Below are positions 1 to 5,484 of a stretch of DNA of 64,000 nucleotides, one piece after another. The notes beneath the pieces are model-generated. The model ran no database searches and was not told the DNA's origin. It saw only the letters and a list, made by a program, of their open reading frames with translations. The position numbers were made by a program, and so were the translations under genes. Each line of letters starts with the position of its first letter. Position 1 is the stretch's first letter. Source of the stretch: Schleiferia thermophila (GTDB lineage Bacteria; Bacteroidota; Bacteroidia; Flavobacteriales; Schleiferiaceae); contig NZ_QPJS01000004.1 of the NCBI RefSeq assembly GCF_003337435.1, positions 114,618-178,617 on the forward strand, given 5' to 3'.

Positions 1-3000
1 TTGTTCGGTGCTATCGGCTTTGCAGTTGTAGGGTGAGAGGGCGATGAGTCGGACGATGACGGAGTCGCCGTCGTTGGCGATGGTGTAGTTCAGGGAGTCA
101 GGACCGCTGAAAGAGGCGATGACGGAGTTGTTTTTAATGATTTTCCAGAGGTAGGAGGTGTTGGCATTGGGGAAGAGGAGGGGTTTTACTTTGGAAGTAT
201 CGATGGTAAAGGGGGCGCATTCGACGGAGCTGAGGACGTTGAGTTGAGCATTGGCATTGGGGTGTACGGTGATGGTTTGGGAGGAGGAGTCGGTACATCC
301 GAAGGCATTGGTGACAGTGAGGGAGACGGTGAAGGAGGTATCGTTTGTAGAGGGGTTGGAGAAGGTGACGGAGGGGTTTGCGGAGGTATCGGTTAGTCCG
401 TTGCCAAAGTTCCAGAAGTAGGAGAGTTGGGGCAAGTTGGACTGACCGGAGGAGGAGAGGTTGGTAAAGGAGACGGTGGAGGAGTCGCAGACGGAGGTAT
501 GGGAAGGGGAGAAGGAGGCGATGGGTCGTGGGTAAGCGACGAAGGATTTGGAGATGGAGTCTTTACAGCCGTTGGAGTCGGTGATGGTCAGGGAGATGGT
601 GTAGGTGATGGAGTCTGCTGAGGAGAGGGGCAGCAGGAAGGAGGGGTTAGGGGTATTGAGGTTGGAGGAGGAGACGTTGGAGGATGGGGAGATGGACCAG
701 AGGTAGGAGAGGTTGAGGCCTATTGAGGAGTCAGCGGGAGAGAGGCTGAAGGGGGAGCAGGAGTTGGGAGGCAGGGAGAAGTTGGCGATGGGTCTAGGCA
801 GGAGGGAGATGGAGTGGGAGGAGGTATCGGAGCATCCGTCCTGGGAGGAGACGATGAGGGAGATGGAGTAGGTGATGGGGTTGTTGGATTGGTTGTCCGG
901 GAAGTAGAAGACGGGGATGGGAGCGGAGGGGTTGGAGATGAGGACGGAGGAGTCGCTGACGGTCCAGAGGTATTGGAGGGGTGTTTTACCGGAGGAGAGG
1001 TTGAGGGGGCTCAGGGAGTCGTTGGCACAGAGGGATGGGGGCATGGAGAAGCTGGCCAAGGGTTTTGGTTTGAGGGTGATGGATTGGTAGGCGGTATCGG
1101 TACAACCGGTACCGGCGGTCACTACGAGTCGGATGGAGATGGTGGAGTCGGAGGAGTTGGAGAGGTTGAGGAAGGAGAAGGAGGGGTTTTGAGAGGAGAT
1201 AGGGGTGATGCTGTTGTTGATAGCCCATTGGTACTGGACGTTGGGGGAGGAGTTGTTCAGGACGATGAAGGTAGCCGGGGAGCAGGCCGAGTCGGGCAGG
1301 AGGGTGAAGCTGGCAGAGGGGTTGAGGATGGTGTAGAAGAGGTGTTCGGTGCTATCGGCTTTGCAGTTGTAGGGTGAGAGGGCGATGAGTCGGACGATGA
1401 CGGAGTCGCCGTCGTTGGCGATGGTGTAGTTCAGGGAGTCAGGACCGCTGAAAGAGGCGATGACGGAGTTGTTTTTAATGATTTTCCAGAGGTAGGAGGT
1501 GTTGGCATTGGGGAAGAGGAGGGGTTTTACTTTGGAAGTATCGATGGTAAAGGGGGCGCATTCGACGGAGCTGAGGACGTTGAGTTGAGCATTGGCATTG
1601 GGGTGTACGGTGATGGTTTGGGAGGAGGAGTCGGTACATCCGAAGGCATTGGTGACAGTGAGGGAGACGGTGAAGGAGGTATCGTTTGTAGAGGGGTTGG
1701 AGAAGGTGACGGAGGGGTTTGCGGAGGTATCGGTTAGTCCGTTGCCAAAGTTCCAGAAGTAGGAGAGTTGGGGCAAGTTGGACTGACCGGAGGAGGAGAG
1801 GTTGGTAAAGGAGACGGTGGAGGAGTCGCAGACGGAGGTATGGGAAGGGGAGAAGGAGGCGATGGGTCGTGGGTAAGCGACGAAGGATTTGGAGATGGAG
1901 TCTTTACAGCCGTTGGAGTCGGTGATGGTCAGGGAGATGGTGTAGGTGATGGAGTCTGCTGAGGAGAGGGGCAGCAGGAAGGAGGGGTTAGGGGTATTGA
2001 GGTTGGAGGAGGAGACGTTGGAGGATGGGGAGATGGACCAGAGGTAGGAGAGGTTGAGGCCTATTGAGGAGTCAGCGGGAGAGAGGCTGAAGGGGGAGCA
2101 GGAGTTGGGAGGCAGGGAGAAGTTGGCGATGGGTCTAGGCAGGAGGGAGATGGAGTGAGAGGAGGTATCGGAGCATCCGTCAGGGGAAGTGACGATGAGG
2201 GAGATGGAGTAGGTGATGGGGTTGTTGGATTGGTTGTCCGGGAAGTAGAAGACGGGGTTTGGAGCGGAGGGGTTGGAGATGAGGACGGAGGAGTCGTTGA
2301 CGGTCCAGAGGTATTGGAGGGGTGTTTTACCGGAGGAGAGGTTGAGGGGGCTCAGGGAGTCGTTGGCACAGAGGGATGGGGGCATGGAGAAGCTGGCCAG
2401 GGGTAATGGGTTAATCACCACAGTTCTGCTTATAGAATCACGACATCCCGTGCCTGCAGTTATCACAAGTTTAATGGTAACAAGGCTGTCTTGATTTCCT
2501 GGATTTACCAGGGAAAAACTAGTGTTGTAAGCAGTGCTTATTAATGAGTCGTTTAAATACCATTGGTACATTAATCCTATATCCGAGCTGTTGGAAGTGT
2601 AAATACTTTGACCTGAGCATATTGCAGAGTCAGATAAACTAAAAATTGCATTGGGTTGAGGATTTAAATTAACGTGAACAGTATCATAATTTCTGCACTG
2701 ATATACTGAGTCTTCTACCATCAGATAATACACACTGTTGAGTGTAGGTTTCACCCATAATTGATCCGTTGAGTCTAAAACATTAGAAGAAGAATCAAAC
2801 CATACGTACAACAAACCAGGATTGCCTGGAGAACCAATTAAAACAGAATCGCCGGGGCAGATATTTTTATTGCCGCCTGCATTCACAGGAGGCAAGGGAA
2901 TTATGGGTAGTAAAATCGTATCTGTGACCTGGCAGTTGTTAGCATCCGTTACAGTCACTACATAAAGGCTATCTGCAAGACTGGCTATAAGTGTAGTACT

Positions 3001-5484
3001 TGATGTATTTGTACTGGTAAGTCCGACCGAAGGACTCCACTGATATTGAAAACCACCTCCGCCACCGCTGGCAGTTACCTGAATTTGTATGGTATCAGAT
3101 TGACAAACAAAAGGCGGTGCATTGTTTGATAACTGAATTGGAGGATATGGTACCACATAAAAAGTTGCACTGTCGGTACATCCTTTTTCATCCACAACAA
3201 AATAGTTGATTGAAATCGTATCGGTTATTCCTGTTATAAATACTGTGTTAGAAGTATCTGACTGATTGCAGCTGCAATTCCAATAAGTAAAATAAGGGGG
3301 GTTCCCTGAGGTAACCACTGGTGTAAGGGAGAAATTTTCACCATAACACACATAGTAAACCGAATCAACCTGAATTTTTGGCAACTCAAAGATTTCAACT
3401 TTCTGCGAGTCTGTCACTTCACCACAAATGTTTGAAATTCTTAATTTTACCCAATAAACTCCAGCCGAATCGAAAGAAATCACAGGCACAGAATCGCTTG
3501 GTGTACTTCCTGTAATAAACGACCATCCGACAGGCGGGCTTACACTCCAGAAATACTCCAATGTGCTCAAACTGTCGTAAATAACAGGGATGTGTCCGGA
3601 GTCAAGGCCAAATGCGATGATCTGTGGTCCACAATATGCCATCGCTGGCGGCATTTGCAGAAAAGGCTTGCTGATAATGCGAAATACAGTATCGACAGAA
3701 TCTACACCACAAAAATTTTCCTTGATCATCAGCAATCTGTATTCACCCACTTCATTGATAGTGAGTTGAACAAACCTGGATGCCAGAGAGCCTGAATCCA
3801 CCGTAAAACCGGTCGAGGGCTGTATTTCCCACCTAACGCGGTTGGGCAGGCATGAGTAAATCGAATCTCCCGCATCCTCAAAGCCAACGGAAAATGGTTT
3901 GCAAAATGAAGAATCGTTGTTTATAAATTTAAAATTAATTCCAAGATCGTCAGGTGGTTTTCCTACACATATCACCTTTATGGCTGAATCGGCACCACAC
4001 TCATCCACATTTCCGACAAACTGTTTGATAGTATATAGTCCTGGTTGGTTAAATTGTACTGTAATATTTGAAGTGCCTGATATCCAATCAGCAGGGTCTG
4101 TGGAATTGTTAAACATTATTCCCATGCTGCCAGATAGTACTGTATAGGTGGACGGACTGATACTCCAGACAACTTTTTTATTCGAATCACAAATACTCGG
4201 ACTTTGAATGAAAATTCCGCCTATCGATGTATCCGTGATCTGAACAGCTGAACTAACACACACCGTATCAGGTACAGTAAAACCTGCAGTCACAGCCTCG
4301 TTCAATACAATTCCGTTGACGGAGGCTGTAGTGGAAAAACAGGGGTTTGTCGCTGTGATTGTGACGGTAAACTGATTGGATTTGGTTGGGTCACATGAAT
4401 TCTTATAAAATATGTGAGTAAATGTATCAGGGGGAGGATGTATGTAAGTATATACAGATGGTACGTCGTTTACGACTACTGTATAGGTGGTGCCGGGTGG
4501 ATTGGATTGATAATTGGAGAAAATAAATGAGAAAGCTTGTCCGCTACTGTCTTTTGGCAGGCAACGAATGGTGTTGCCCAGTGAGTTGATCCCAATTGCC
4601 GGATTGGTACCATAAAACAGCTGTATTTTCTTCGAATTGCTGCACCCATTGGCATTGGTCAGCTCAAGAACCACCTCATAAAGTCCCGGACTGGTCAATG
4701 AAATGGGCTTAAAATTCGGTAAAGTGGTTCCGGAGTCGATTACATTGTTGTTAAGATACAGTTTATAAAAGCTGTATATGCTGGATGAAAAGGTTAAATT
4801 GAAAGTCTGATTCTGATTAACTGTGCAGAATTTGTAAGTCGTCAAGCCATTGAATATACTAAATTGTCCGGTCGATATGATGGTATCTATTTTTGGAAGA
4901 TCATGTACCACAAAAGTCATTGAATAGGTACTGATGCATCCAAAAGAATTTGTAATGGTATACGTAATTTGATGCGACCCGACACCAGCCACTGATGGAT
5001 AAAAAACATTGCCGCTTACACCAGGCCCGCTGAAAAATCCTCCAGCCGGATATCCGCCACTCAGAAACAAAGGGTCGTCATTCAGACAGAAAGTCGATTT
5101 TGGAGGATTAAAGTGCACTGAATCAGGAACTCCGATCCAGAAGTATATCGAGTCTAATCGGGTCCCGTTGGTGTCTAAGGTAACTTTGTACACACCGGGA
5201 TTGGAATACTGAACATTGAAAGAAGCAACCGTAGAACTGGATGGAACACCCCCGGAAGCGCTCCAATTCAGTGTACCGGCGTTGATGTTTGTAGAGAGTG
5301 GTATGGCAGTGTTTACACACTGTTTTACGGTATCCGTTTGCGGCTGGCTTTGATTAACCAAAATCCATTGCGGCTGGGAATAAGTTTTTGTAAGAAAAAA
5401 TAAAAGACTTATTGAAAAATTAAAAATCAATGAAGTCGAAGAAAAATTCCTTTTTCTAAAGGAATTCGAGGGTACCTTGTTCAA
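1..5484 (-). CDS. Giant secreted PKD/Ig-like repeat surface protein (partial, C-terminus beyond window)
   Basis: The minus frame is open without a stop from 5484 to the window edge, giving at least 1828 codons. The best start is TTG at 5484, three codons after an in-frame TAG. It gives a signal peptide with a basic N-terminus, then a hydrophobic stretch (SLIFNFSISLLFFL) and a TYSQ cleavage region. The rest is a chain of Ig/PKD-like beta-sandwich domains of about 90 aa, many with a cysteine after an acidic or polar turn. One carries a clear PKD signature (YFWNFGNG). From about residue 1028 the domains start with a P-x-x-x-A-x-F pattern and form a near-identical five-domain repeat. Such proteins are adhesins or gliding/matrix proteins in Bacteroidota, usually exported by T9SS. 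A C-terminal sorting domain is expected outside the window but is not seen. Function is inferred from architecture only. Confidence 0.85.
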   Translation of the reverse strand, partial: MNKVPSNSFRKRNFSSTSLIFNFSISLLFFLTKTYSQPQWILVNQSQPQTDTVKQCVNTAIPLSTNINAGTLNWSASGGVPSSSTVASFNVQYSNPGVYKVTLDTNGTRLDSIYFWIGVPDSVHFNPPKSTFCLNDDPLFLSGGYPAGGFFSGPGVSGNVFYPSVAGVGSHQITYTITNSFGCISTYSMTFVVHDLPKIDTIISTGQFSIFNGLTTYKFCTVNQNQTFNLTFSSSIYSFYKLYLNNNVIDSGTTLPNFKPISLTSPGLYEVVLELTNANGCSNSKKIQLFYGTNPAIGINSLGNTIRCLPKDSSGQAFSFIFSNYQSNPPGTTYTVVVNDVPSVYTYIHPPPDTFTHIFYKNSCDPTKSNQFTVTITATNPCFSTTASVNGIVLNEAVTAGFTVPDTVCVSSAVQITDTSIGGIFIQSPSICDSNKKVVWSISPSTYTVLSGSMGIMFNNSTDPADWISGTSNITVQFNQPGLYTIKQFVGNVDECGADSAIKVICVGKPPDDLGINFKFINNDSSFCKPFSVGFEDAGDSIYSCLPNRVRWEIQPSTGFTVDSGSLASRFVQLTINEVGEYRLLMIKENFCGVDSVDTVFRIISKPFLQMPPAMAYCGPQIIAFGLDSGHIPVIYDSLSTLEYFWSVSPPVGWSFITGSTPSDSVPVISFDSAGVYWVKLRISNICGEVTDSQKVEIFELPKIQVDSVYYVCYGENFSLTPVVTSGNPPYFTYWNCSCNQSDTSNTVFITGITDTISINYFVVDEKGCTDSATFYVVPYPPIQLSNNAPPFVCQSDTIQIQVTASGGGGGFQYQWSPSVGLTSTNTSSTTLIASLADSLYVVTVTDANNCQVTDTILLPIIPLPPVNAGGNKNICPGDSVLIGSPGNPGLLYVWFDSSSNVLDSTDQLWVKPTLNSVYYLMVEDSVYQCRNYDTVHVNLNPQPNAIFSLSDSAICSGQSIYTSNSSDIGLMYQWYLNDSLISTAYNTSFSLVNPGNQDSLVTIKLVITAGTGCRDSISRTVVINPLPLASFSMPPSLCANDSLSPLNLSSGKTPLQYLWTVNDSSVLISNPSAPNPVFYFPDNQSNNPITYSISLIVTSPDGCSDTSSHSISLLPRPIANFSLPPNSCSPFSLSPADSSIGLNLSYLWSISPSSNVSSSNLNTPNPSFLLPLSSADSITYTISLTITDSNGCKDSISKSFVAYPRPIASFSPSHTSVCDSSTVSFTNLSSSGQSNLPQLSYFWNFGNGLTDTSANPSVTFSNPSTNDTSFTVSLTVTNAFGCTDSSSQTITVHPNANAQLNVLSSVECAPFTIDTSKVKPLLFPNANTSYLWKIIKNNSVIASFSGPDSLNYTIANDGDSVIVRLIALSPYNCKADSTEHLFYTILNPSASFTLLPDSACSPATFIVLNNSSPNVQYQWAINNSITPISSQNPSFSFLNLSNSSDSTISIRLVVTAGTGCTDTAYQSITLKPKPLASFSMPPSLCANDSLSPLNLSSGKTPLQYLWTVSDSSVLISNPSAPIPVFYFPDNQSNNPITYSISLIVSSQDGCSDTSSHSISLLPRPIANFSLPPNSCSPFSLSPADSSIGLNLSYLWSISPSSNVSSSNLNTPNPSFLLPLSSADSITYTISLTITDSNGCKDSISKSFVAYPRPIASFSPSHTSVCDSSTVSFTNLSSSGQSNLPQLSYFWNFGNGLTDTSANPSVTFSNPSTNDTSFTVSLTVTNAFGCTDSSSQTITVHPNANAQLNVLSSVECAPFTIDTSKVKPLLFPNANTSYLWKIIKNNSVIASFSGPDSLNYTIANDGDSVIVRLIALSPYNCKADSTEQ
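3..1062 (-). repeat. Direct repeat, second copy in gene order (may continue left of window)
   Basis: Near-identical to 1344-2403. A 281-bp segment (1063-1343) lies between the copies and encodes the fifth domain of a five-domain, 447-residue unit. Only base 1 differs from its partner at the window edge (Gln for His), so the array may extend further left. Confidence 0.9.
1344..2403 (-). repeat. Direct repeat, first copy in gene order (about 1.06 kb, offset 1341 bp)
   Basis: This segment matches 3-1062 almost base for base at an offset of 1341 bp, which is 447 codons, so the frame is kept. The few differences cluster near 2155-2300: about six small substitutions and a short altered patch. It encodes nearly four PKD-like domains starting LASFSMPPSLCANDS. 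The similarity stops abruptly at about 2403, exactly where base composition changes. Confidence 0.9.

Follow-up and report, generated by a model that had tools for sequence, protein, structure and literature searches.

In Flavobacterium johnsoniae, the type IX secretion system exports the giant and highly repetitive gliding adhesin SprB as one of its type B substrates; a PorP-like gene lies alongside the SprB gene, and secretion of SprB requires SprF, which binds it (PMC9143113). The adhesin gene of Schleiferia thermophila described here resembles the SprB/SprF pair in being giant and repetitive and in having a PorP/SprF gene adjacent to it. Unlike the 669-kDa SprB, the adhesin has other repeats and about 2916 codons, and its part in gliding or adhesion is putative. 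The best structural matches of its 447-residue repeat unit were Ig/PKD-like chains (9flw, 9flp and 9flv) from GhpA, a grappling-hook protein found in Aureispira sp. When the unit model was compared with the GhpA fragments using Foldseek, an E value of 2.2e-16, 16-21% identity and TM-scores of 0.28-0.48 on the query were obtained. This likeness is that of a common fold of tandem domains and is no evidence for hook function.

Two further systems bear comparison with the GC-rich elements dispersed in the same genome. As in REP/RAYT systems, these elements are palindromes scattered between genes, and a Y1_Tnp gene adjoins one variant; unlike REP elements, they are longer (about 120-180 bp) and are accompanied by a kilobase-scale composition gradient. 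The Y1_Tnp gene (IS200-like, RAYT-type; C1:430602-430974, plus strand, L145) is the only one in the S. thermophila genome. A further difference from REP/RAYT is that no Y1_Tnp match was found in the relative G001, although it has 11 elements, and a RAYT nickase was rejected on this ground. Diversity-generating retroelements offer an analogy only, in that DNA beside a fixed element is changed locally and directionally; their change is adenine-specific and falls in a short target, whereas here the gain of C is broad and extends over kilobases. No RVT_1 match was found in the S. thermophila genome or in G001, and mutagenesis by a reverse transcriptase was rejected on the S. thermophila result.

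The stretch of DNA analysed (the window; 64,000 nucleotides) corresponds to C4:114618-178617 of the 2.6-Mb S. thermophila genome. Genes were taken as open reading frames, without the use of a gene finder. The adhesin gene is read from the minus strand; its start is near 5484, and it extends left beyond the window. A hydrophobic stretch was noted by eye at the N-terminus of its product, PKD-type domains are numerous, PKD_4 being matched in window 1-2403 with 113.9 bits (curated cut-off 27), and a Pfam CHU_C domain, of the type IX sorting kind, was found at the C-terminus, left of the window in locus L004 (31.3 bits, cut-off 27). No NCBIfam sorting-domain model matched the adhesin at E 0.001. 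Directly downstream of the adhesin, also in L004 and left of the window, lies a PorP/SprF-type gene (TIGR03519, 114.3 bits, cut-off 90.55), and SprF-like genes were present at the homologous loci of 12 relatives. On the strength of the CHU_C and PKD domains, the adjacent PorP/SprF gene, the SprF-like genes at the 12 loci and the role of SprF in F. johnsoniae, the protein was read as a stalk-bearing, SprB-like (type B) adhesin of type IX secretion, with a putative part in adhesion or gliding.

Within this gene, window positions 2-1062 and 1343-2403 were identical at 1052 of 1061 bases (99.2%), at an offset of 1341 bp (447 codons) that keeps the reading frame. This match exceeds chance by far, and no second tandem repeat of comparable size was found in the ~1 Mb of the S. 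thermophila genome examined. The repeat had been reported in an earlier, sequence-only reading, to which two corrections apply: the gene is on the minus strand, and the match begins at base 2 rather than 3. All nine mismatches lie within 817-1059 (817, 841, 842, 847, 849, 917, 919, 956 and 1059) and are clustered, four of them (841, 842, 847 and 849) falling inside nine bases; 2-816 is 100% identical to 1343-2157. Given the minus strand, the block has its N-terminal edge at position 2403. The following features were distinguished, with C3 denoting C at third codon positions:

Positions 2404-5484, minus strand: N-terminal part of the predicted giant type IX secretion adhesin, 1027 codons of ordinary codon use (ORF 1-5484, minus strand; C3 22%; weak PKD/Ig-like matches).
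Positions 2404-2655, minus strand: domain 5 paralogue of ordinary composition in front of the block, ending VVINPLP (C3 change point at codon 1028, interval 1024-1032; protein comparison).
Positions 1343-2403, minus strand: copy 1, made up of the first four domains of unit 1, C-rich and continuous with the N-terminal part (matches 2-1062 with 99.2% identity at a period of 1341; C3 75%; five-domain model).
Positions 1063-1342, minus strand: the middle domain 5, which belongs to unit 1 and separates the copies, C-rich (C3 74%; 38.8% and 33.3% protein identity to the domain 5 paralogues flanking the block).
Positions 1-1062, minus strand: copy 2, made up of the first four domains of unit 2, C-rich, running on across the scaffold gap into the C-terminal part (repeat match; C3; 97-base overlap and open frame).

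An AlphaFold2 model of the 447-residue unit (mean pLDDT 93) contained five beta-sandwich domains, in agreement with the five claimed earlier. The P-x-x-x-A-x-F start said to be shared by all of them was seen by eye in four; the fourth domain has HPNANAQL instead. The domains preceding the two copies had been called paralogous in protein and unlike in DNA, and so they are: the one ending VVINPLP (before copy 1) shares 38.8% of residues over 85 with the one ending ITLKPKP (before copy 2). An antisense ORF of 187 aa (814-1377, plus strand) inside the block is probably spurious, because the biased composition leaves few stops on that strand.

The repeat block also marks an abrupt change to coding DNA that is rich in C and poor in G, which was overlooked in the sequence-only reading. 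Within one ORF, C occupies 74-75% of third positions in both copies and in the middle domain 5, against 22% in the N- and C-terminal parts; third-position G in the block is 5%. The best C3 change points were codons 1028 and 1892 (numbering of the gapped ORF), each resolved to about nine codons (log-likelihood gain 358); they fall where unit 1 begins and at the domain 4/5 junction of unit 2. The middle domain 5 is C-rich and its paralogues on both flanks are not. The VVINPLP and ITLKPKP domains differ in DNA because only the latter sits in C-rich DNA. Serine makes up 20-21% of the block units, compared with 7-16.5% of the units of other genomes, and glycine is low. Among the orthologous arrays of relatives that were examined none was comparably C-rich, codon use there being ordinary, and the block was by far the longest and strongest skew island in the ~0.9 Mb scanned.

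Full units were counted in homologous genes, leaving out those relatives whose genes are cut by contig ends. One unit was found in G001, G008 and G019, two in S. thermophila (G000), G013, G021 and G024, three in G016, and four in G003 (a single contig) and G014. Unit number thus ranges from 1 to 4 between genera of the family, which supports, at the level of genera, the length variation that had been proposed. In a tree of the units, most grouped by genome; the exceptions, G016_u1 with G018_u1 and G003_u4 with G021_u2, are what weaker homogenisation of terminal units would produce. In G034, which belongs to a different family, three units were identical and the fourth was 99.6% identical. They belong to a giant ORF of 5591 residues on contig C2 (L037), with four 460-residue units at 99.6-100% and ordinary codon use. 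Compared across genomes, the unit array appears to follow the ordinary concerted evolution of a stalk, as unequal recombination would give. The suggestion of recent unit duplication or gene conversion is supported by the 99.2% identity in S. thermophila, by the 99.6-100% in G034 and by the grouping of most units by genome. Its placement at the growing end of the array does not fit, because the array lies mid-protein, with ~1027 residues before it and more than 1000 after it; it begins at about residue 1010-1045 in eight genomes.

The base composition of the block is shared by genes that adjoin the dispersed elements. The GC-rich palindromic intergenic elements fall into family A (~180 bp), family B (~125-133 bp; ~40 places genome-wide) and a further variant; examples on contig C1 are 144652-144473, 517985-517853, 452147-451967 and 317996-318174 (loci L124-L163). 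No Rfam family reached the gathering threshold in the element loci scanned, and a known RNA family was rejected accordingly. C3 was at least 0.51 in 8 of the 587 ORFs of C1:1-800000, and all eight lie upstream of such an element. Seven of them stop 11-79 bases short of it (~30 in the case of the variant), and the remaining ORF overlaps one of the seven. The base fingerprint of the block at four-fold, two-fold and leucine codons resembled that of element-adjacent genes, with four-fold C/G of.79/.05 in the block,.78/.05 in PhoH and.76/.04 in pyruvate kinase. Around 26 elements, C-over-G skew on the element strand formed a gradient ~6 kb long: it was about 0 at -7 kb and climbed to about +0.32 beside the element; past it, skew fell to about 0 within 2 kb for B and to about +0.1 for A. 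At 442 control gene ends the skew was flat. Opposite-strand genes mirrored the skew, with 50% G at four-fold sites within 1 kb of elements, and the effect is therefore regional and strand-specific rather than one of codon choice. A weaker ramp, from +0.03 to +0.16, was seen around the 11 elements of G001. One of these, on contig C2 of that genome (L122, 5130-5560), has a variable array of ~40-bp repeats and lies behind the adhesin/SprF operon, and this operon is C-rich towards its element.

The link between the gradient and the elements is an association, from which a causal role of the elements is inferred; two lines, one orthologue pair and one young copy, support that direction. The pair is pyruvate kinase, with a C3 of.63 beside an element in S. 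thermophila and.31 in G001, where there is no element, the two proteins being 88% identical. A second orthologue, recA, showed a weak G/C difference only (.28/.22 vs.26/.27 in G001) and was left unused. The young copy, at C1:140514-140760 (L131), is a 247-bp duplicate (99%) of the 3' end of the pyruvate-kinase gene together with the start of element A, and has no ramp. Here about the last 50 codons of pyruvate kinase are appended, in frame, to a different gene, in which C3 is.18-.40 until its last 50 codons and.60 within them, an abrupt onset. This transplanted tail and element show that C-rich DNA can be moved and is then sharp-edged. In principle, the elements could instead have inserted into DNA that was already C-rich.

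We give a slightly better than even chance to the reading that the block is the stalk array of a type IX adhesin, homogenised by recombination and carrying the imprint of an element-linked, strand-asymmetric enrichment in C. Recombination between units adds, removes and homogenises copies of the five-domain, 447-residue unit; the comparison showed the outcome, unit numbers that differ between species and units that resemble each other within a genome. A strand-asymmetric process, linked here to the GC-rich elements, would raise the share of C on one DNA strand and lower that of the other bases. The block has neither an element nearby nor a gradient; the sole A/B element found in C4:78000-178617 is ~17 kb away and in the opposite orientation. 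Because the block is without an element and sharp-edged, its C-rich units would have formed beside an element, in the adhesin array or a paralogous one; unequal recombination, or gene conversion, among homologous units would then have placed or kept them where they are. Copies 1 and 2 would owe their 99% identity to recent homogenisation. No donor array was found for the block, and the best match of the unit outside the S. thermophila genome was ~49%.

A wider proposal, held tentatively and put a little short of an even chance, is that the elements in these Bacteroidota are centres of directional, strand-specific rewriting to C, reaching up to ~6 kb upstream and ~1 kb downstream in genes of either direction. 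Copies of the elements could carry flanks with them, the adhesin block would be rewritten DNA spread by recombination, and its serine-rich, glycine-poor make-up would be a by-product. Taken alone, the repeat is a good but ordinary illustration of how the stalk of a type IX secretion adhesin evolves in length. The strand-asymmetric composition gradient is anchored on dispersed repeats and occurs in two genera; codons are altered by it, as is, apparently, the amino-acid content of the adhesin. If causal, it would represent a local mutation-bias mechanism in bacteria that confounds analyses of codon usage, gene transfer and selection, and some native genes would look foreign for this reason. No repeat-anchored skew gradient was found in the open-access papers searched.

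It is unlikely that the block arose by plain tandem duplication and gene conversion, with C-rich codons in the stalk simply chosen to suit translation or mRNA structure. Concerted evolution is indeed seen family-wide, and the protein part of the finding needs nothing further, but EF-Tu and EF-G have no C bias, orthologous arrays (the near-identical units of G034 included) use ordinary codons, the amino-acid content is shifted as well, with serine up and glycine down, and the bias near elements is independent of gene direction. Translational codon selection was rejected on the evidence of EF-Tu and EF-G, tandem repetition as a cause of C-richness because the G034 array is not C-rich, and Rho-loading (C over G) selection on transcripts because of the mirror image in opposite-strand genes. 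A search of 40 genomes for C-triplet patterns was dropped as unspecific, since Ala/Pro/Ser-rich proteins match.

It is likewise improbable that the C-rich block was imported, the array having been replaced homologously by that of an unrelated organism whose codon use is C-rich. In favour of such an import, the edges of the block are sharp at unit and domain borders, and the array is more diverged from that of G001 (48%) than are the C-terminal part (58%) or SprF (61-62%); against it, 75% C with 5% G at third positions is unlike an ordinary GC-rich genome, no close match of the unit was found among the genomes searched, and native core genes such as pyruvate kinase bear the same fingerprint.

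The repeat was confirmed as real. The left edge of the window is adjoined by 98 N (a scaffold gap), and the last 97 bases that precede these N are exactly window 1-97. When the two sides were joined at this overlap, an open frame of 2916 codons with no internal stops was obtained; on both counts the gap is probably a negative one, at a repeat that the assembler could not resolve. Two distinct partners of the repeat were seen on its N-terminal side (the N-terminal part and the middle domain 5) and two on its C-terminal side (STEH-LFYT and STEQ-LLYT). An assembly artefact, in which one real unit was doubled at the unresolved repeat, is highly improbable in spite of the gap inside the repeat and the exact 97-base overlap of the neighbouring contig ends, since two different junctions per side and nine clustered differences need at least two copies, and four like units occur in the single-contig genome G003. 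The junctions require at least two units in the S. thermophila adhesin, and more identical copies are possible. Further left, ~10 kb from the window, a Bacteroidales-type small SRP RNA was matched on the minus strand (RF04183, 105.9 bits; L004:6595-6701).
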